Part shown: one piece after another, positions 1 through 60,381 of the stretch
Position numbering within the stretch: position 1 is the stretch's first letter
How the letters are laid out: each line of letters begins with the position of its first letter
NCBI RefSeq assembly: GCF_018130695.1
Contig: NZ_JAFCJX010000028.1
Coordinates: forward strand, 1-64,000
Reading direction: 5' to 3'
Origin: Bradyrhizobium jicamae
Lineage (GTDB): Bacteria; Pseudomonadota; Alphaproteobacteria; Rhizobiales; Xanthobacteraceae
Length of the DNA: 64,000 nucleotides
The notes under the pieces: generated by a model
Told to the model about the DNA's origin: nothing
The model's input: the letters and a program-made list of their open reading frames with translations, nothing else
The model's database searches: none
Translations under genes and position numbers: made by a program

Positions 1-199
1 CGTATAAGCCGTAAAGCCATCGCGCAGGGAAGGCCGGATGCCTCCGCCGAACCTGTATGCTCGTGCGCGCACTTCTTCTGTGCACAATGCGCACGGGACC
101 GCGGGTGCGGCGCGCACCCGGTCTTCCCTGCGCCCTCGCTATCGAGAGAGGGCGGAACGAGATGAATACCTCGGGCAAATCATGTCGCGAGAATGCGGA
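1..199. repeat. Dispersed repeat, left copy (inverted mate at 54539-54735)
   Basis: Seen directly: bases 1-199 match the reverse complement of 54539-54735 over essentially their whole length, about 85 percent by eye. They share the edge CGTATAAGCCGTAAAGCC and the inner end TCATGTCGCGAGAATGCGGA. The left edge is cut by the window, so the element may continue outside. Both copies carry a similar open frame that reads like a short protein (NLYAR...RTRSSLRPR), but two diverged copies in opposite orientation in intergenic DNA fit a non-coding repeat better than a gene. Confidence 0.8.
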
Positions 200-337: not shown

Positions 338-1369
338 TCACTCCGCCGTTTGCTCCCGCAGCCGCTGCGCGTAGACGTTGATCACCAGCGCCGCGAGCAG
401 GATCAGGCCGCGGATCAGGATCTTCAGGAAGCTGTCGATATTGACGTGGTCGAGACCGTTGTTAAGCACGCCGAGCACGAACAGGCCGACGATGGTGTTG
501 CCGATGCCGCCGCGGCCGCCGAACAGGCTGGTGCCGCCGACCACGACGGCGGCGATGGAGTCGAGCAGGTAGGTGTCGAACTCGTTCTGCTGGGCGCTGC
601 CGAAATGCGCCACCCCGAGCATGCCGCCGATTCCGGAGCAGACCGCCGAGATCACCATCACGCTGCCGAGGATCAGCTTGACGTTCAAGCCGGCGAACTC
701 CGCGGCCTCGCGGTTGCCGCCGACCATATAGACGTAGCGGCCGAAGCGCGTGTAGGTCAGCACCAGATGGCCGCCGAGCAGCATGATCGCCGCGACGATC
801 ACGATCCAGGGAATGCCGCCGATCGAGCCGGAGCCGAGCGTCGTGATCAGCGGTGGCACCTTGTAGGCGATCTGGCCGCGCACCAGCAGCGCCGAGATGC
901 CGGCCGCGATCTGCATCATCGCGAGCGTCATGATGAAGGAGGGGATGCCGATCACGGTCAGGCCGAACGCGTTGACCGCGCCGAGCAGCGCGCACAGCGC
1001 GATCGCGAGCAGGATCGCCGCGATGCCGGGCAGCGGCACATTGGCGATGTTCACATAGGATTCCTGCAGCGTGAAATAGGCGACCGCGATGCCCGTGACA
1101 TTGGCGATGCTGGCGATCGACAGGTCGATCTCGGCGCAGAGGATCACGAAGGTGAGGCCAACCGCGATGATGCCGGTGACGGAGACTTGCGTCAGGATGT
1201 TGCCGAGATTGTCCAGCGTCGCGAAGGAGGGGCTGGCGACGGCGAAGAACAGGCTCAGGAAGATCAGCGTCAGGAACGGCGCGATGTTGCGCATCTGCGA
1301 GCGCAGGAAACTGCCAACGCCGCGCGGCGCCTTGTGATCCGTCCGGGCGGCTGCGCCGTCAGTTGCCAT
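338..1369 (-). CDS. Ribose-type sugar ABC transporter permease
   Basis: Inner-membrane permease of a CUT2 (ribose/xylose/inositol-type) ABC importer. The 343-residue protein starts with a short polar cytoplasmic N-terminus and then runs as about nine to ten hydrophobic segments, ending just after the last one, as in the BPD_transp_2 family of RbsC. The segment ILCAEIDLSIASIANVTG (about residues 80-97) matches the family region normally reading GGIDLSVGS. I chose the ATG at 1369 over a TTG one codon upstream. It is the last gene of a minus-strand operon, 12 bases after the ATPase gene. The sugar transported cannot be read from the sequence. Confidence 0.9.
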   Translation of the reverse strand: MATDGAAARTDHKAPRGVGSFLRSQMRNIAPFLTLIFLSLFFAVASPSFATLDNLGNILTQVSVTGIIAVGLTFVILCAEIDLSIASIANVTGIAVAYFTLQESYVNIANVPLPGIAAILLAIALCALLGAVNAFGLTVIGIPSFIMTLAMMQIAAGISALLVRGQIAYKVPPLITTLGSGSIGGIPWIVIVAAIMLLGGHLVLTYTRFGRYVYMVGGNREAAEFAGLNVKLILGSVMVISAVCSGIGGMLGVAHFGSAQQNEFDTYLLDSIAAVVVGGTSLFGGRGGIGNTIVGLFVLGVLNNGLDHVNIDSFLKILIRGLILLAALVINVYAQRLREQTAE

Positions 1370-1381
1370 CAATCCACTCCA

Positions 1382-12031: not shown

Positions 12032-13315
12032 ATGGATGAGACCATGACCGAGCCAGTTGTCCGCACCCCGCCCTTTGCGCCCTTCGAGTGGCTGCTGTCC
12101 GGACGCTATCTGCGCGCGCGGCGCAAGGAAGGCTTCATTTCGGTCATCGCCGGCTTCTCGTTCCTCGGCATCATGCTCGGCGTCGCCACGCTGATCGTGG
12201 TGATGGCCGTGATGAACGGCTTCCGCAAGGAGCTGCTCGACAAGATCCTCGGCCTCAACGGGCACATCCTGGTGCAGCCGCTGGAATCGCCGCTGACCGA
12301 CTGGAAAGACGTCGCCGATCGCATCAGCCAGGTCCCGGGCATCCGGCTTGCGGCGCCGGTCGTGGACGGGCAGGGGCTTGGCTCCTCGCCGTTCAACGCC
12401 GCCGGCGTGTTCATCCGCGGCATCCGCGCCGAAGACCTCAACAACCTCACCTCGATCGCCAAGAACATCAAGCAGGGCTCGCTCGAGGGCTTTGACGAGG
12501 GCCAGGGGGTCGCGATCGGCCGCCGGCTCGCCGACCAGCTCTCGCTGCATGCCGGCGACAGCATCACGCTGGTCTCGCCGAAGGGCGCCGTGACGCCGAT
12601 GGGCACCACGCCGCGCATCAAGCCCTACAAGATATCAGCCGTGTTCGAGATCGGCATGTCCGAATACGATTCGACCTTCGTGTTCATGCCGCTCGCCGAG
12701 GCGCAGGCCTATTTCAACCGCAACAACGACGTCTCCTCGATCGAGGTGTTCACCAACAATCCCGATCGGATCGTGGCCTTCCGCACCTTGGTGACGGAGG
12801 CGGCCGGACGTCCGGTGTTCCTGGTCGACTGGCGGCAGCGCAACTCGACCTTCTTCAACGCGCTGCAGGTCGAGCGCAACGTGATGTTCCTGATCCTCAC
12901 CATGATCGTGCTGGTGGCGGCGCTCAACATCGTCTCCGGCCTGATCATGCTGGTGAAGGACAAGGGGCAGGACATCGCGATTCTGCGCACCATGGGCGCC
13001 TCGCAAGGCTCGATCATGCGCATCTTCCTGATCACCGGCGCCTCGATCGGCGTGGTCGGCACGCTGGTCGGCCTGATGGTCGGGCTCCTGATCTGCTTCA
13101 ACATCGAATCGATCAGGCAATTCCTGTCCTGGCTGACCAATACGGAATTGTTCGACCCGACGCTGTATTTCCTGTCCAAGCTGCCGGCGGAAATCGATTT
13201 CGGCGAGACGCTGGCAGTGGTGATCATGGCATTGACGCTATCTTTCCTGGCGACGCTGTATCCGTCGTGGCGCGCCGCGCGCCTCGATCCCGTCGACGCG
13301 CTTCGGTACGAGTGA
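12032..13315 (+). CDS. lolC: Lipoprotein-releasing ABC transporter permease (LolC/LolE type)
   Basis: 427-residue inner-membrane subunit of the complex that releases outer-membrane lipoproteins to LolA. It has the MacB/FtsX-like plan: one N-terminal membrane segment (about 30-55), a periplasmic domain of about 220 residues and three C-terminal segments (from about 270). [15 protein letters not shown] is the conserved cytoplasmic helix that contacts the ATPase. Many alphaproteobacteria have a single LolC/E homodimer, so C or E cannot be distinguished. It lies 7 bases before lolD. Confidence 0.92.
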
Positions 13316-53647: not shown

Positions 53648-53690
53648 GATCTCAACGGAAAACCGGTACCCACTTTTCCGGATCACGCTC
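53642..53690. repeat. Dispersed palindromic repeat between moeA and the HAD gene
   Basis: Outer arms GAGCATGATC and GATCACGCTC and inner arms CGGAAAA / TTTTCCG surround ACCGGTACCCAC. This is the GGAAAAGTGGGTACCGGTTTTCCG-type element that I recall as abundant in Rhizobiales intergenic DNA. Here it contains the annotated moeA start and the stop codon of the neighbouring gene. Confidence 0.75.
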
Positions 53691-54324
53691 CGCGTGGAAG
53701 TATCTCTAGCTCAGTCAGTGCCCGTGCCACGTCATCCATCGATGTCACGTGGACGGCACAAAGGCCACGCGCCCGTGCGCCCTCGATATTGGCGGCCGAG
53801 TCGTCGAAGAACAGGATCCGCGACGCCGGCACGCCGATCGCTTTGACCACGTGATCATAGGCCTCGGCGTCGGGTTTTCTCAAGCCGATCGAAGAGGACA
53901 GGAAGATCTCGCGGAAATGGCTCAGGACCTCGGCATATTCTTTCGAGAAATGCGCGATATGGGCCGGGTTGGTGTTGGAGAAGGCGTACAGTGGCAGCCG
54001 CTGGCCGGCCGCGGCCAGCATCTGCGCAATGCCGGGCATCTCGCCGGTGAAGATCGAATTCCAGCCGCTCAGGAACTGCGCATCCGTGATGCCGATGCCG
54101 AGCGAGCCGCGCAGATTGTCGAAGAAGGTGGCGTCGTCGATCCGACCGGTCTCGTGATGCCTGAAACTGTCGTCGACGACGAAGCGCGTTGTCAGGTCGG
54201 TGGCGGCGCAGCCGGCATGCGCCGCCCATGTCGCCATCACCTGGTCGAAGCTGATATCGATCACGACGCGGCCGATGTCGAACAGCAGCACGTCGATGGA
54301 GCCGGGGGAGATTTGCGCGGTCAT
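53683..54324 (-). CDS. HAD-superfamily hydrolase (YihX-like)
   Basis: 213 residues. Motif I is VLLFDIGRVVIDI: nucleophile Asp followed by Gly at the second position, as in YihX-type sugar-phosphate phosphatases (FDLGNVIVDI). AFSNTNPAH is motif II, LRKPDAEAYDHVVKAIGV motif III and ILFFDDSAANIEGARARG motif IV. Substrate unknown, possibly a sugar phosphate. The stop codon lies within the repeat shared with moeA. Confidence 0.88.
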   Translation of the reverse strand: MTAQISPGSIDVLLFDIGRVVIDISFDQVMATWAAHAGCAATDLTTRFVVDDSFRHHETGRIDDATFFDNLRGSLGIGITDAQFLSGWNSIFTGEMPGIAQMLAAAGQRLPLYAFSNTNPAHIAHFSKEYAEVLSHFREIFLSSSIGLRKPDAEAYDHVVKAIGVPASRILFFDDSAANIEGARARGLCAVHVTSMDDVARALTELEILPRGA

Positions 54325-54388
54325 TGCTGCACGGTGTTACGAAAATTGCGGGCAGGCGGCAATGGGTGGAGCAGGGCAGTCTCAGCAT

Positions 54389-54502
54389 CGTCATCCTGGC
54401 GGAAGCCAGGGGATCCATTACCACCGAGTTGTGAAAGGGGTCGTGGCCCCAGCGTCGCGTAGCAATTCGCATTCGGGGTAATGGGCTTTCGCCAGGACGA
54501 CG
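54389..54502. repeat. Palindromic dispersed repeat
   Basis: The ends CGTCATCCTGGCG and CGCCAGGACGACG are inverted; the inner arms CCATTACC and GGGTAATGG also pair. The middle contains a smaller hairpin (GGGGTCGTGGCCCC). It directly abuts the next repeat. Confidence 0.7.
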
Positions 54503-54538
54503 AATGTGTGGCACGCGCCAATCTCGACAACTCGCAGT

Positions 54539-54735
54539 TCCGCATTCTCGCGACATGATTTGTCCGAGGTTTTCCGTTCGTTTCGCCCTCTCTCTAGATC
54601 GAGGGCGCAGGGAAGACCGGGTGCACGCCGCACCCGCGGTCTCGTGCGCAATGAGTAGAAAGTTGCGCACACGAGCATACAGGTTTGGCTGAGACATCCC
54701 GGCCTTCCCCGCGCGATGGCTTTACGGCTTATACG
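54539..54735. repeat. Dispersed repeat, right copy (inverted mate at 1-199)
   Basis: Reverse-complement match to bases 1-199 over the whole length, about 85 percent by eye with a few small indels. The two copies face opposite ways about 54 kb apart, so recombination between them would invert the intervening DNA. Confidence 0.8.
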
Positions 54736-55068
54736 TGCTCGCCCTGGTGAGACTCTGCTTTTGTGCCACCATCATCCGCGATCGGCTTTGGACCTCTCGC
54801 GGGCTTACCACCAACATCGGGGCGGCAGGCCCACACGACTTCGCCGTACGCCTTGCGCGCGCACATCTATCGCACGTTCGGCGTCCACCGCATCCCGACC
54901 CGCGTTCCGGACGTTGCGCAACGCCCCTCGTGTCGGGTGAGACGGGAGGAATTATACGTCTGATTTGGCCTTCGGATAAAGAGAAATATTTTTGCGTTCG
55001 GGGCTTGACACGATTCCGTCATTCCGAACTGATTTGCCCGTCGTGTCGAAATTGTCACAGTCCGGTGT
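54736..55068. repeat. Probable continuation of the long dispersed repeat
   Basis: No gene seen. Segments such as GCGGGAGGAATTATACGTC's surroundings, GGGGCTTGACACGATTCCGT and TGATTTGCCCGTCGTGTCGA read like parts of a long repeat I recall from Bradyrhizobium genomes, continuing from the unit at 54539. The left copy of that unit is cut by the window, so I cannot compare this part internally. Confidence 0.4.
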
Positions 55069-55113
55069 GCTCGGCAGGGAGCCAACGGGGCATCTGCACC
55101 GTGCTCTGCAAGC

Positions 55114-55674
55114 CTACTTGCCGGTCAGGGACAGGCTGATGCGCGTGACAATGCCGTCCCATTTTCGCTCTTCTCGCGCCGGATAGTTGATCAAGACGCA
55201 GTGGATCAACTCCTTTGAGAAGTTGCATCTGTCGTACCAGACCTTGTCCCCCTTGTAGCTCGAAACGACAAAGAAGCGGGGAGTCACACGTTTGTACTGG
55301 ATATTCGGTGGAGGATTCTTCTTCGCAAGATACGCTGCCGGCGAGTCCTGCGAGACATTGGCGACGGACTGTATCGTCAGATCGGCTCGCCCGTCCGCGG
55401 TCCGAAAGCGCTGCCCATAACCCTCCGGCCTGTCCACGGCTTCCGTAAAGATCGATGAGGGAAAATCGACCGAGGTCGCCGTCTGCGGGATCGTGAAGGT
55501 CGTCCACGTTACAGTCTCCGCTCGCGCGGTCGGACCTGGGATCGTGAGCGAAACAGTCAGGCCGAACAGCGCGAGAAGGCGACGACGCCGATTTGCCGCG
55601 CCGTCGCAGTCATCGGCGACACGGCTGGACCAATCGGTATCGACGGCTCTTCGCAGCGGTGCAGTATCGGCCAT
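55114..55674 (-). CDS. Exported protein of unknown function
   Basis: 186 residues from ATG 55674. A long polar lead, then RRRRLLALFGLTVSLTI and cleavage near TARAETVTW. The mature part is beta-rich: SVDFPSSIFTEAVDRPEGYG, RFRTADGRADLTIQSVANVS, FFVVSSYKGDKVWYDRCNF, with two Cys that could pair. The sequence suggests a periplasmic domain, but I do not recognise the family. A nearer start downstream would give a more usual signal peptide. Confidence 0.65.
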   Translation of the reverse strand: MADTAPLRRAVDTDWSSRVADDCDGAANRRRRLLALFGLTVSLTIPGPTARAETVTWTTFTIPQTATSVDFPSSIFTEAVDRPEGYGQRFRTADGRADLTIQSVANVSQDSPAAYLAKKNPPPNIQYKRVTPRFFVVSSYKGDKVWYDRCNFSKELIHCVLINYPAREERKWDGIVTRISLSLTGK

Positions 55675-55863
55675 CCCTGATGCTCCGAGAGGCATATTTG
55701 CTGGCAACTCAGCATACCCGTGAAAGTTTCCAATTCCTCCCGCGGGGGCTCTCCCTGCTTCGCTCCGCCTTCGATCGATTGCGACTTGTTGCTACCCGCC
55801 CGGATCGGAACGGACCGGCGCGCTCGCGCGTTCGCAGGAGGTTACCTTGGCTGTGTGTCGAGC

Positions 55864-56079
55864 ATGCACAACGAAGCACTTCAGGATGAGTTGAGGCGGC
55901 TGGAGCGCGAGGTCGTTGAAGCCGAGCGTCGGCTTGCGGAGCAGGAAACGCTGCTCGTCGACTTGAAGAGGCAAGGCCAGGATACCAACAAGGCCAGCGC
56001 CGAGCTCGAAATGATGCGCGACCAGCAGCGTCGTCGCCAGGCAGACCGGCTGCGCCTTCTCTCGCTGCTGCAGCCATAG
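55864..56079 (+). CDS. Small coiled-coil protein
   Basis: 71 residues, almost all charged heptads: LQDELRRLEREVVEAERRL, then LVDLKRQGQDTNKASAELEM and a basic tail. Predicted to be one long helix or coiled coil. Similar short coiled-coil proteins occur in bradyrhizobia. The open frame starts at 55720, but the ATG at 55864 gives the coherent part. Confidence 0.6.
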   Translation: MHNEALQDELRRLEREVVEAERRLAEQETLLVDLKRQGQDTNKASAELEMMRDQQRRRQADRLRLLSLLQP

Positions 56080-56246
56080 CCTTCTGTTTGGCATTCTGTT
56101 TGGAACGAAGACTCCCTCTCACGAATCTATTCGGCGCCGACCGGCTCAATTCGGACTCCTCAGCCCATTGGGCAGGCGGCCGGCGGCCCTGGCACGTTGC
56201 GCAAGGCCGGGGCCGTTGGCATTCGGAAGACTGTACGGTGATCAAG

Positions 56247-56438
56247 ATGGCCGACCGGCTAAAACTCTATCACTTGTTTGCGGTTGACGCCGCCGGCGTT
56301 GCGACCGCGACCTATGAATTCAATTGCAGCGACGAGGAAGAAGCCAGGATCCGCGCCAGGACGTATTTGGGGCGACATGACATGCTCGAGCTCTGGATCG
56401 CCCACAAGAGGATCGCGCGGTTGAACCGCGGCGAATGA
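56247..56438 (+). CDS. Small hypothetical protein
   Basis: 63 residues: MADRLKLYHLFAVDAAG, then TYEFNCSDEEEARIRARTYL and ELWIAHKRIARLNRGE. The plan (short beta start, acidic helix, closing W-x-x-x-R-x-x-A-R-L) is that of a small family common in Bradyrhizobium. GTG at 56238 is an alternative start. Function unknown. Confidence 0.65.
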   Translation: MADRLKLYHLFAVDAAGVATATYEFNCSDEEEARIRARTYLGRHDMLELWIAHKRIARLNRGE

Positions 56439-56557
56439 CTGCCGAGCAAGGTCTGTCTGTCGCTCATGCCAGCCGTCGGCACGTCACCGAATTAGGCTAG
56501 CGTTTTGGGGCGCGGCGTCCTCAGCCCCAAATCTTAGATTGCCGCGCGCCTCCCAAC

Positions 56558-56589
56558 GGCCCCGGCCGGCCTAGGCCCGGGCCTTTTTT
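56558..56589 (+). terminator. Rho-independent terminator
   Basis: GGCCCCGGCC / GGCCCGGGCC stem (nine of ten pairs) with a 6-base loop, then TTTTTT. It follows the 56247-56438 gene on the plus strand by about 120 bases. Confidence 0.8.
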
Positions 56590-56606
56590 CTGCCCGATGT
56601 CGGCAG

Positions 56607-56711
56607 CTAGGGGGCGATCACTGCCAGGAGCACAATGACGGCGAGCGACATAAGGATCATAAGCAGATCGATTGTGAGCCAATTGGGCATGCCGTCTTGA
56701 GGATCTTCCAT
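56607..56711 (-). CDS. Single-span membrane micro-protein
   Basis: 34 residues: MEDPQDGMPNWLTIDLLMIL followed by MSLAVIVLLAVIAP and stop. One hydrophobic span, acidic N-terminus. GGAGG is placed nine bases before the ATG. Function unknown. Confidence 0.6.
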   Translation of the reverse strand: MEDPQDGMPNWLTIDLLMILMSLAVIVLLAVIAP

Positions 56712-57169
56712 GGCATGAGCCTCCATGTGGAATGGATGCTGAAACGGAAGAACGCGGAGCGATATGATCTGCTTCACCTTGTGAGACCTTTTGAAGTGAA
56801 AATAGTATACGCGGATTCACATGGGTGATGGATCGGAAGGGGGTATCGGGAAAAGCTGGAAAGTCCGGGGAGCTGGGTCTTTTCATCTCGCAGGTTTTTC
56901 AACCCGGAGGGCCGTTGCGGAAGCACCGGCCCTTTCGCTCTAAGGCTGATCGGCGGTTGGATGCCGTTCACGCCGCGCGTCCAAGAGACGGTCCCGGCAA
57001 ACGCCCCCCGGCCGGGGCCGTTCCCGCGCGCGCCACTCACTCGCGAGAGCGAATTACGGCAACGGCTCTTTTGAAGTGCTCCTTCAGAGCAGTCATCGGT
57101 TCCGCGGCACATGGCTAAACTCCCTTGGCCGACCGGGCCTAGCTACCCAGCCCCGGACCCGGAGAGCAG

Positions 57170-57203
57170 GCGGCCCCGTTTTCGCGATGCAAAGCGGGGC
57201 CGC
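57170..57203. other. GCGGCCCC hairpin
   Basis: Perfect 9-base arms GCGGCCCCG and CGGGGCCGC; with the adjacent TTTT/AAAG the pairing extends to 12 of 13 bases. Followed by TTTGGCG only. Confidence 0.6.
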
Positions 57204-57493
57204 TTTGGCGCATTTGCGCAAATTGTGGTCTTGGCCGACTTATCGTGCTGACTATTTCTGTAGAGGCTCTGATGCTTCACTGAGCCGAATAAAAACCGCC
57301 TTCTGCGTGATCGCCTTTGCGGGACGGCAGGAGGCGGTGGGGTTAGACGGCATTCCATGCGCGAGCGCCTCATGCTGACGCTCGGACGAATTCTGATATT
57401 GTCGGGAAGAAGTGGAAATCGACGCCCGCGCGAAACTAGCTAGCTGGCGGATCGTTAGCTGATCGGGTGCCCCGACCGCATCGGCATCCAAGG

Positions 57494-57545
57494 ACGGCCC
57501 CGGCCACCAAGCCCCCCCAACCCCAAGCCGGGGCCGTTTCTTTTA
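57494..57545 (+). terminator. Candidate terminator with 11-base stem
   Basis: ACGGCCCCGGC / GCCGGGGCCGT, perfect, around a C-rich 22-base loop, then TTCTTTTAG. No protein gene identified upstream on the plus strand. Confidence 0.6.
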
Positions 57546-57840
57546 GACAAAGAGAGACCGCCAACGTGGTGACCTCTGAATCTATTCAGGCGGGCGCAGC
57601 GGGGACTTGGTGTAATCGGGAGAGGAGTGGCTGTCAGCACCAGCTGATCGCAGCCATACAGACCGCGAAAGTAAAAAAGTCCTGGCCCCAGCGAAATCGC
57701 CAGAATGGTTGCCGTGCCTCCCAACGCAGGAACCTCGGCGCGGGTCCTATGCCCTTGCCCGGCGATCGGATAACTGGAATTGCGATGAACCAGCGATGTT
57801 GGACCGCCGGGGTGCCTGCTTTTCAAAGGGACAGTGAGGG

Positions 57841-57939
57841 ATGGATCATTCGTGGATCGTCGCAATACTGATTGGTCTCGCCGTGGCGCTAGGGCTCGCC
57901 ATCGATTTTTTGCTTCACCCTGAAGTTATCGGCGGCTAG
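57841..57939 (+). CDS. Single-span membrane micro-protein
   Basis: 32 residues: MDHSWIVAILIGLAVALGLA followed by IDFLLHPEVIGG and stop. One membrane span. GTGAGGG directly precedes the ATG. Resembles the other micro-proteins of this zone in plan, not in sequence. Confidence 0.55.
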   Translation: MDHSWIVAILIGLAVALGLAIDFLLHPEVIGG

Positions 57940-57962
57940 TGCCTCCGATCCTCCACTGAGAA

Positions 57963-58257
57963 TTATGCCGCGCGCGCCGCAGGCCTTGCAAACGAGCCGA
58001 GGCCCCAGGTCCGACACCCGATCGGGTCAGCGGTCGACGTCGTCCGACGGCAGGCTGATGTTGCAGCTGCACCTTTAATCGACGCAGAGCGCGATCGGGC
58101 CGCGAACGCCGGTCGCGCGCATCTCGCCCAGCGTGATCTTGACCGGGCGGCCATCGGGCAGGGTGGTGCGGTTTTCAGGCGGGCAATGCGCATGGCGCGA
58201 TGATTGCGCTGCGAGCGGTGAGAGTGGAGCCGCTGCAAGTCGGGCCACGGTCCGCAA
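57963..58257 (-). pseudogene. Decayed small zinc-ribbon protein gene
   Basis: The frame reads PDGRPVKITLGEMRATGVRG, then PIALCVD and TAA (58075-58077), continuing in the same frame as RCSCNISLPSDDVDR, TGA (58027-58029), PDRVSDLGPRLVCKACGARG. The intact family, as I recall it from rhizobia, reads LTLGEMREMGVRG ... YRCSHS ... DDVRLSDLEPRFVCKACGKRG. Similarity therefore continues past two in-frame stops, the mark of a pseudogene. The true start is uncertain. Confidence 0.7.
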
Positions 58258-58969
58258 TTGTCACGAGATATTGGTGAAGCGTTCCGAAATCGCCTCGGTT
58301 TTCGCTGTTACGGAAGATCGCGACAGCCGCGGGGAAGCGGCCCCAGCTGGGGCTGGGGGCTTCTGGGGCCGCCCATTTCAACCGCTGGCGACCTAGGACA
58401 AGCAAGCCAACGGTGAGTCACGTTACCGCGGCTCGGTTGAATCGCTCCGAACTAGTTTGGATTACCTCTGTGGGCGGTGCCGCTGAATGCCGATGTGGCG
58501 CGCGCATCCAGCGTCGTCATGGCAAAGTTCTCGTGGCAGCAATGCGGAAGTCGCGCGCCAAGCTGGCGCGGCCGCAATAACGCATGTTAAGATTGCCAAA
58601 TTTTCCTGGATTCAGAACCTCTGCCGCACTGCACACTCGGTCCGCCGGTTCAGTTACGTGGGAGCTCGCAGGAGTGGCCCTGCCGCAAGGCAGATGCATG
58701 ACAATGTTCAATAGTGAACTGACTGGGGTGTGCCTAAGCCGTAAAGAACGGGCATTGCCCAAACATGTGAAATTGCTTGTTGGACTTCGAGCCCGGCCCC
58801 TGTGCCGGGCTTTTTGTTGACCCGCGTCGGTGCCGGCGTTTCCGGTCGTTCGGGCGTACTGACTTACTGGCGCCGCCGGAGTTGCAGCAGCGGCGTTGGA
58901 CGATCTTGGCGTGGTTGTCGAGCGCGTCTGCGCTCGGTATCTTCCGCTGGTGCAGAGTCGAGGTGTGGA
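58258..58969. other. Stretch without a supported gene
   Basis: Open frames look like noise. Contains the hairpin at 58337-58372 (GCGGCCCCAG/CTGGGGCCGC, perfect 10 bases) and a strong terminator at 58790-58816 with no recognisable gene upstream, so a small RNA ending there is possible. Confidence 0.45.
58790..58816 (+). terminator. Rho-independent terminator of an unknown transcript
   Basis: AGCCCGGC / GCCGGGCT, perfect 8-base stem with 6-base loop, then TTTTTG. Confidence 0.8.
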
Positions 58970-59206
58970 ATGCCGCGGCTTCTTCCGTCAAAATCCTGCT
59001 CGAAGTGCCAAGGTCCGCTCCGCCGCGAGCCGTGCCTGCTGGGTGCGATCTATGTTTGCGAGCGATGCGATCGCGGCGATCCGATGGACAGTGCCGATCC
59101 GTGGATCAACGGTGAGCTCAAGCCTCCAGCTACATCTCTGGCGCAACGTTCTGAAGCGCGCACGCAAATGGGCGGAGGAGATCTGTCGGCTCGGCACTCG
59201 AGTTAG
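58970..59206 (+). CDS. Small zinc-finger-like protein
   Basis: 78 residues. Two CxxC knuckles, KSCSKCQGPLRREP and YVCERCDRGDPMDS, and then WINGELKPP. This order (CxxC, YxCxxC, DPM, W--GEL-PP) matches a short protein type widespread in Bradyrhizobium. GAGG precedes the ATG. The C-terminal 25 residues are polar and unlike the family. Function unknown. Confidence 0.68.
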   Translation: MPRLLPSKSCSKCQGPLRREPCLLGAIYVCERCDRGDPMDSADPWINGELKPPATSLAQRSEARTQMGGGDLSARHSS

Positions 59207-59370
59207 CTGCAATTTCTTCTCCTTCCCCTTGAGCGCGCAAGATCGGGATGAGGAGGGCCATGCCCTGCGGCTTGGCCGCGCCCCGGTCGAGAGCTCCGCC
59301 CACCATCGTCGGAGCTACACGTTTTTACCGCTTGTTAGAAACCTAATGCCCGCTTCCGCAATTGTTGGAG

Positions 59371-59592
59371 ATGCAGAGCGCTCATGACATCCACGTGGTG
59401 CGCGTCACGACCGACGACGGAGAACGCCAGCTCTGGCTCGCGGCGACCGAGCGCGACGAAGCCGTGGACCGGGTGCTTGACGCGATCCCGGAAGGGTGGA
59501 CGGCCACACTGATCGAGCGGAAGCTGAGCGACGAGCACGCTGCGAGCCTGAACATGGCGCCCGGAGAAATCCGTCACCATCAACTGTCGTGA
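59371..59592 (+). CDS. Small hypothetical protein
   Basis: 73 residues: HVVRVTTDDGERQLWLAATE, RDEAVDRVLDAIPEGWTATL, then DEHAASLNMAPGEIRHHQLS. The pattern LWL-A--RDEAV--VL--IPEGW---L and L-M-PGE-R is that of a small rhizobial family of unknown function. The ATG at 59371 has GGAG too close upstream; TTG 59362 is an alternative start. Confidence 0.68.
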   Translation: MQSAHDIHVVRVTTDDGERQLWLAATERDEAVDRVLDAIPEGWTATLIERKLSDEHAASLNMAPGEIRHHQLS

Positions 59593-59686
59593 GGGCGGCC
59601 GTCATCCCGGCGGCATCTGCCAATTTCGCAGGCCAGACCAACTTAAGTTAGCGCTGGATCCGGCGCCATGGCACAAGCTGGCGGCC

Positions 59687-59773
59687 ATGAACAGCACCGG
59701 CCTGCACGTCGCGCTTGCATTGATCTGGGTCGCGATCCTCGCGCTCAGCCTGGCCTGGATCCTCGTGAGCTAG
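59687..59773 (+). CDS. Single-span membrane micro-protein
   Basis: 28 residues: MNSTGLHVALALIWVAILAL then SLAWILVS and stop. Almost entirely one membrane span. Upstream sequence has only a weak ribosome binding site. Confidence 0.45.
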   Translation: MNSTGLHVALALIWVAILALSLAWILVS

Positions 59774-59797
59774 CCGCCTCTGCGGGGAGATCCTCAA

Positions 59798-60220
59798 TCA
59801 CTGCCGGTTGCCTCGCTTGGTCCGTTGCGGGGCCGGTGCGGAGCTCTCGGCTTTCGCGGATTCCAGGGAGTTGACCCGCGCGCTGAGCGCACCGAGTTGG
59901 TCAGACAGCAGCTTTTGCTCGCCCCGCTGGGCTGACGTCTTCTGTTGGACGTCATTGATTTGAGCCGTCAGCTTTTCCTGGGCCGACCGGATTTCCTGCA
60001 ACGCCTGTTGAACCGACGACAGGCTCTGCTTGATCTGGTCGATCGCCGGGTCTGGAGCAGCGGCGACCGCGGCGTGGTCTTGCGAGTCGGCCAGCCTTGT
60101 CGCGCTGCTGTAGCTCATCCACAGCGCGGCTGAGGCGATGAGGAGGGCGAGGAGCGCCACGAGGAGTGCCGGCAGTGCCGCGCGTGGCCGTGGGTCGGCG
60201 AACATTGAATGGTCGGTCAT
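59798..60220 (-). CDS. Membrane-anchored coiled-coil protein
   Basis: 140 residues from ATG 60220. An N-terminal anchor LPALLVALLALLIASAALWM, then a long coiled coil (IDQIKQSLSSVQQALQEIRS, AQEKLTAQINDVQQ, QLGALSARVNSLES) and a basic tail. Likely an inner-membrane protein with a periplasmic coiled coil. The frame extends to 60358 without support. Function unknown. Confidence 0.7.
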   Translation of the reverse strand: MTDHSMFADPRPRAALPALLVALLALLIASAALWMSYSSATRLADSQDHAAVAAAPDPAIDQIKQSLSSVQQALQEIRSAQEKLTAQINDVQQKTSAQRGEQKLLSDQLGALSARVNSLESAKAESSAPAPQRTKRGNRQ

Positions 60221-60244
60221 GGCGAGGCTCCAATTGCCGAAGAG

Positions 60245-60270
60245 CCCGGTCCGTTCGGACCGGGCTCGTA
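60245..60270. other. Perfect inverted repeat
   Basis: GAGCCCGGTCCG / CGGACCGGGCTC with a 2-base centre, between two minus-strand genes; no T-run follows. It may be a weak terminator for the DUF1236 gene upstream. Confidence 0.5.
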
Positions 60271-60381
60271 GTTGAGCTGAGTGCACGTGCGCCAACCGAT
60301 ATCCGGCGCCAACGTCCACGATGACGGCAGGAATCGCCCAAAGCAAAATCACGGGCATTGTCGAAAGGCGTTCGTGCGTGC

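Follow-up and report, generated by a model that had tools for sequence, protein, structure and literature searches.

A many-copy intergenic element of Bradyrhizobium with the features of a structured noncoding RNA gene

Introduction

Dispersed repeats of the ERIC type are imperfect palindromes of ~127 bp that are intergenic, can fold as RNA, and are not known to have a promoter of their own. Long structured RNAs of bacteria are also known, and HEARO, GOLLD, and ROOL are among those included in Rfam. The element of Bradyrhizobium jicamae described here resembles ERIC repeats in being dispersed, intergenic, and foldable as RNA, and is set apart from them, by their description, in size and promoter. 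It is like HEARO, GOLLD, and ROOL in that it would specify a long structured RNA, but it reaches no Rfam gathering score. With rRNA genes and rrn leaders it has in common a boxA-like motif (in part of the copies), a multicopy state, and homogenisation within the genome; apart from this motif no likeness to the B. jicamae rrn locus was detected, and it encodes no rRNA.

Within the genus itself, the closest described repeats are the REP/BIME families, i.e., the GTAG and CGTC REPs, which are palindromes of 20-40 nt (PMC3733652), and Br-REP1 and Br-REP2 (PMC5082802). The element is similar to them in being intergenic, in occurring in many copies, and in its presence in Bradyrhizobium and Rhodopseudomonas, and REP-like palindromes appear to sit in the 3' tail of some of its copies. 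It differs from them in its length of ~450-480 bp, its promoter-like site, and its two-domain fold, and does not conform to a REP unit of 20-40 nt. A larger repeat around Br-REP2 is mentioned in PMC5082802 and is not displayed there; the element may be part of that repeat. No description of the element was recognised in searches of the open-access literature, and a word search of PMC4842269 returned no mention of repeats.

To the repeat we assign a probability of about 0.78 of being a multicopy gene whose product is a structured noncoding RNA, ~430 nt in length, and the copies of which would be homogenised by recombination, with flanks sometimes exchanged; this assessment is based on comparative sequence analysis. 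The initial annotation had taken the repeat for dispersed DNA that can recombine and does not encode a protein family; this reading is supported in part, recombination being suggested by comparison, but the repeat has the appearance of a structured RNA gene with a promoter and not that of inert repeat DNA.

Results and discussion

The window pair and the bounds of the element

The window, i.e., the whole stretch of 64,000 nt that was analysed, contains two copies, and its positions 1-199 (plus strand) and 54539-54735 (minus strand) match at 88% identity with an E value of 2.5e-63, in a search in which 40 of the 233 candidates were scored. The inverted orientation, the spacing of ~54 kb, and the end-to-end likeness (~85% by eye) given for this pair in the initial annotation were all borne out; the size of the repeat unit needs correction: in internal copies conservation runs ~280 bp further 5' than the noted bounds, the unit is ~450-480 bp long rather than 200 bases, and the noted pair represents the 3' half of the element alone. 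Copy 1 is cut short because window position 1 is also position 1 of its contig (C21), which leaves it the 3' structured domain (5-198, plus strand) and places its promoter and 5' domain outside the contig. Copy 2 is a complete element at about 54539-54990 on the minus strand, with a 3' structured domain at 54540-54731 and a 5' structured domain at 54732-54945. Promoter scan and direct reading both place a predicted -10 hexamer TATAAT at 54951-54956 and, 17 bases from it, a weak predicted -35 hexamer TTATCC (3/6 consensus) at 54974-54979, on the same strand.

Each copy has a conserved 3' neighbour, namely, a transport permease gene (BPD_transp_2; 338-1372, minus strand) for copy 1 and a HAD-like hydrolase gene (53683-54324, minus strand) for copy 2. 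The site beside the permease gene is also occupied by the element in three other genomes (G073, G094, and G132), and an element or partial element adjoins the hydrolase gene in several relatives. A tRNA-Arg gcg (12317-12413), the only tRNA predicted for the window, is located inside a predicted coding gene (12032-13315) and is therefore probably a false call.

Copy number and distribution

Two search patterns found 71 and 82 sites in the B. jicamae draft genome (8.68 Mb, 66 contigs), the union being 86, which is an upper figure as one copy may span two contig ends and two weaker pattern matches may be due to chance; reversed control patterns gave 0 matches in this genome. This genome-wide count confirms a dispersed repeat, and the window pair are ordinary members of a many-copy family, with nothing special about them. 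A contig end lies within 400 bp of at least 31 of the 86 sites, and 6 sites are on contigs without length data. In one further genome (G025), more than two dozen matches to a variant core motif, CATTGCGCGGGGAATGCCGG, which is two bases off the pattern, were noted as a possible large subfamily.

By blastn, the element was found in 34 of 60 relatives (B. jicamae included), i.e., in 34 of the 36 genomes of the genus and in 0 of the 24 from other families. A covariance model built on the 3' domain gave matches in 102 of the 198 genomes of the family and in 26 of 47 genera (B. jicamae again included), which is a lower bound owing to stricter filters. When 16 genomes of other genera were searched again, 4 had a single match and the rest 2 to 22, counts to which the self-complementary stem contributes some matches in antisense, and the 5' domain is visible by eye in many of 27 loci from other genera. 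The 22-base core motif, among the matches listed (80 of 117 stretches), occurs in many Bradyrhizobium, in Afipia clevelandensis, and in Rhodopseudomonas pseudopalustris and R. infernalis. The family extends across many genera, and in Bradyrhizobium it comprises tens of intergenic copies.

An order-wide search with the model gave matches in 12 of 297 genomes, 2 of them outside the family (3 matches in G398 of family f16, 1 in G553 of family f14), possibly reflecting transfer, remnants, or misassigned contigs. The listed core-motif matches also include a metagenome bin titled Chloroflexi, for which chance, contamination, or transfer may be responsible. A constant partner gene in low-copy genera was rejected, as the ten scanned neighbours differ; they include genes for DnaJ, PRC-barrel, GNAT, a solute-binding protein, a TPP enzyme, a 17-kDa antigen, and Usg, the last of which recurs in two genomes of one genus (g48).

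Common sites and concerted evolution

In the topology of a midpoint-rooted FastTree phylogeny of 75 copies from 21 genomes, the 28 full-length B. jicamae copies that were used form one clade. Flank alignments identified 76 same-site pairs between genomes, 57 of them comparable within the element. The mean identity of these 57 pairs, which are non-independent, is 75.1%, against 74.9% when every between-species pairing of copies in this set of genomes is taken, and the within-genome means are 85.4% and 83.9%. Same-site identity is below the mean to the copy's own paralogues in 30 of 30 pairs involving a B. jicamae copy, and over all pairs it is exceeded in 48 of 52 by the best paralogue within the first genome. 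Some closer genome pairs retain a same-site excess (0.889 and 0.893 vs genome-pair means of 0.840 and 0.837). Flanks at common sites are ~76-95% identical, and since the elements between these conserved flanks are no more alike at the same site than elsewhere, the sites are old and the sequences have been homogenised within genomes. On this comparison, the element is undergoing concerted evolution. Copies hold fixed sites over the long term, while gene conversion, probably through homologous recombination, would homogenise them within each genome.

A non-autonomous mobile element, MITE- or SINE-like, would account for the same clades by lineage-specific bursts of copying instead of gene conversion, with the fold serving its own spread. 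This alternative is in keeping with the many intergenic copies, their intermixing with other repeats on the 3' side, the differences in copy number among genomes, and the species-specific clades. However, many sites are common to species and the sequences there are no more alike, so that fresh insertions would have to target the same sites repeatedly. In addition, a blastn search with one B. jicamae copy as query found nothing among 72,556 records of plasmids and 50,697 of phages, and on this search a plasmid or phage element was rejected. We consider a mobile element unlikely and favour an RNA gene that stays in place and is homogenised there.

Exchange of flanks between copies

Flanks were compared using 70 distinct B. 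jicamae copies or parts, and 20-kb loci for 15 of 32 matches in G004, 14 of 35 in G132, 40 in G094, and 20 in G164. Between the single-contig genomes G004 and G132, both flanks are kept at 7 of 7 common sites, with no re-pairing. Taken two by two (six combinations), the four genomes have both flanks in common at 26 site pairs, the 3' flank only at 14, and the 5' flank only at 1, with 10 further pairs showing weak or cross-side matches alone. In the comparison with B. jicamae, 7 copies of G094 have both flanks beside B. jicamae copies, and for 5 of the 7 (L401, L408, L431, L442, and L444) the two flanks are found at two different B. jicamae copies. Two of these are weaker cases, as the 5' match is 6 kb from the element in L408 and 355 bases in L444, and the L442 arrangement of G094 is also that of the single-contig genome G132. 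Of the remaining two, L410 has both flanks at one B. jicamae copy and L445 is undecided, its B. jicamae counterparts being at contig ends. In the comparison with G164, one B. jicamae copy (L463) retains both flanks at the same copy.

Re-paired flanks in 5 of 7 copies are what crossing over between copies predicts, although the B. jicamae genome is a draft assembly and may contain false joins at repeats. The comparison suggests that copies recombine, and crossing over would then sometimes swap their flanks. The window pair had been proposed as a substrate for inversion; the re-paired flanks agree with recombination between copies, but no inversion between these two copies was observed.

Fold and strand

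For the fold, 30 copies from 21 genomes (at most 2 per genome, 3 from B. jicamae) were aligned as two halves, and RNAalifold yielded structures of 37 pairs for the 3' domain and 41 pairs for the 5' domain. Counted on the alignments from which the fold itself was derived, 98.5% of cells are paired in the 3' domain and 94.0% in the 5' domain, and both-sided changes occur at 8 and 19 pairs, respectively. In both domains all of 500 shuffles, which ignore relatedness, fell short of the observed share of paired cells, of the count of pairs changed on both sides, and of the covariation score; the tally of further pair types was reached by 186 of 500 shuffles of the 3' domain. Sliding the structures by 1-3 columns left 28-57% of cells paired. 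Over both halves there are 342 G-U pairs and 21 A-C mismatches, an excess that points to RNA of the same strand as the element. The helices covary and tolerate G-U on a single strand, as those of structured noncoding RNAs do. An RNA of ~430 nt would fold into a 5' and a 3' domain through covarying helices, with selection acting on the fold.

Known families in Rfam do not account for this fold. Nothing in the window reached the gathering score of an Rfam 15 family, and a low-threshold Rfam search with one B. jicamae copy and five other loci gave weak matches far below that score. An rRNA operon or leader fragment was also rejected, as a blastn comparison between one copy and the 16S locus, flanks included, returned nothing better than E 1.1.

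Promoter and boxA-like tail

The 75 nt preceding the conserved GAGGGG motif were scanned for sigma-70-like sites. In 101 of 145 copies the -10 of the best site starts 24-26 nt upstream of GAGGGG, and a score of at least 9/12 is reached by 52 of 145 copies, compared with 7.5% after shuffling and none of 138 internal control stretches. A complete copy would carry a predicted sigma-70-like promoter that may drive it; no terminator was identified for the element.

A motif within one change of GGCTGTTTGACA, which resembles a boxA of the rRNA-leader type, starts at most 208 nt 3' of the element in the sense orientation in 22 of 135 Bradyrhizobium copies. It is absent within 400 nt of the other 113, and none of the 135 shows it in the opposite orientation or 5' of the element. 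Among copies from other genera, 7 of 27 have the motif within 150 nt; it also occurs in the B. jicamae rrn leader, and it is absent from the whole window, both copies included. In some B. jicamae copies, palindromes appear to separate the element from the boxA. A boxA leading into a downstream gene found no support, as the 3' gene faces the element in 17 of 23 boxA-bearing copies. For part of the copies, the RNA would end in a tail resembling the rRNA leader, which may bind NusB-S10.

Genomic setting and polarity

The copies are intergenic. Where both sides had a predicted gene (codon-usage model trained on the window), the flanking genes converge on the element in 39 of 114 cases and diverge from it in 19 of 114. 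Among 89 copies of four genomes, GC content is 63.7% on the 5' side and 64.9% on the 3' side, and 61 of the 89 are richer in GC on the 3' side (p 0.0006 by a sign test, an optimistic value as sites are common to several genomes); this polarity is absent in G132 (3' higher in 6 of 14) and weak in B. jicamae (27 of 46). Within 8 kb, the predicted coding fraction is 71% on the 5' and 82% on the 3' side, and 3 of ten genes picked from variable 5' neighbourhoods, in two loci, encode transposases. Mean flank GC skew is near zero and gave no sign of a replication-strand bias of copies. In the window, ~5.4 kb 5' of copy 2 (54991-60381) contain no gene by the codon-usage model at a GC content of 61.4%, which fits the low-GC, variable 5' side seen at other copies.

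Directly 3' of copies lie palindromes of other repeat families that vary from copy to copy in a mosaic manner. In the window these are a long inverted repeat just 3' of copy 1 (212-306; arms 212-230 and 288-306, 95% complementary), of a type that also trails several other copies, and another 3' of copy 2 (54388-54503; arms 54388-54407 and 54484-54503), which by eye resembles the Bradyrhizobium REP palindromes of PMC5082802.

The intergenic location and the excess of convergent over divergent neighbours would also suit an element acting at the DNA level, e.g., a structural repeat of the nucleoid or of replication, or an intergenic terminator, in which palindromes function as DNA and no specific RNA is made. 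The strandedness indicated by the G-U excess and by the sense-only boxA, the promoter-like site, and the multibranched 5' domain, which is more than a simple palindrome, argue against this, and we regard a DNA-level role as very improbable next to an RNA gene that acts as RNA.

The shared reading frame

That a protein family might be encoded has practically nothing in its favour other than the frame of the initial annotation, which may be annotated as hypothetical genes elsewhere and which is open over the short stretch shared by both window copies: in each a stop lies just upstream, and among the 41 B. jicamae copies having both anchors, the stretch between these leaves a remainder of 0, 2, or 1 on division by three in 15, 15, and 11 copies and contains a stop in 8. 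With frame shifts from copy to copy there is no conserved reading frame, and the element is not protein-coding, as the initial annotation had also held.

Significance

A more far-reaching proposal is that these copies constitute a new class of abundant, rRNA-like RNA gene, with dozens of dispersed copies held similar by gene conversion, transcribed from own promoters, handled by Nus antitermination, fulfilling a dosage-dependent role in the genus and its relatives, and forming borders with accessory DNA on the 5' side and exchange of flanks; we offer this as a speculative extension that is rather doubtful at present. At a practical level, the element helps to explain the break points of the draft assembly, given the many sites close to contig ends, and it warns against calling proteins from its sequence. 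It would also offer a natural system in which to measure gene conversion between dispersed bacterial repeats. If transcribed, it would represent a very high-copy RNA gene family, without an Rfam entry, in an agriculturally important genus.
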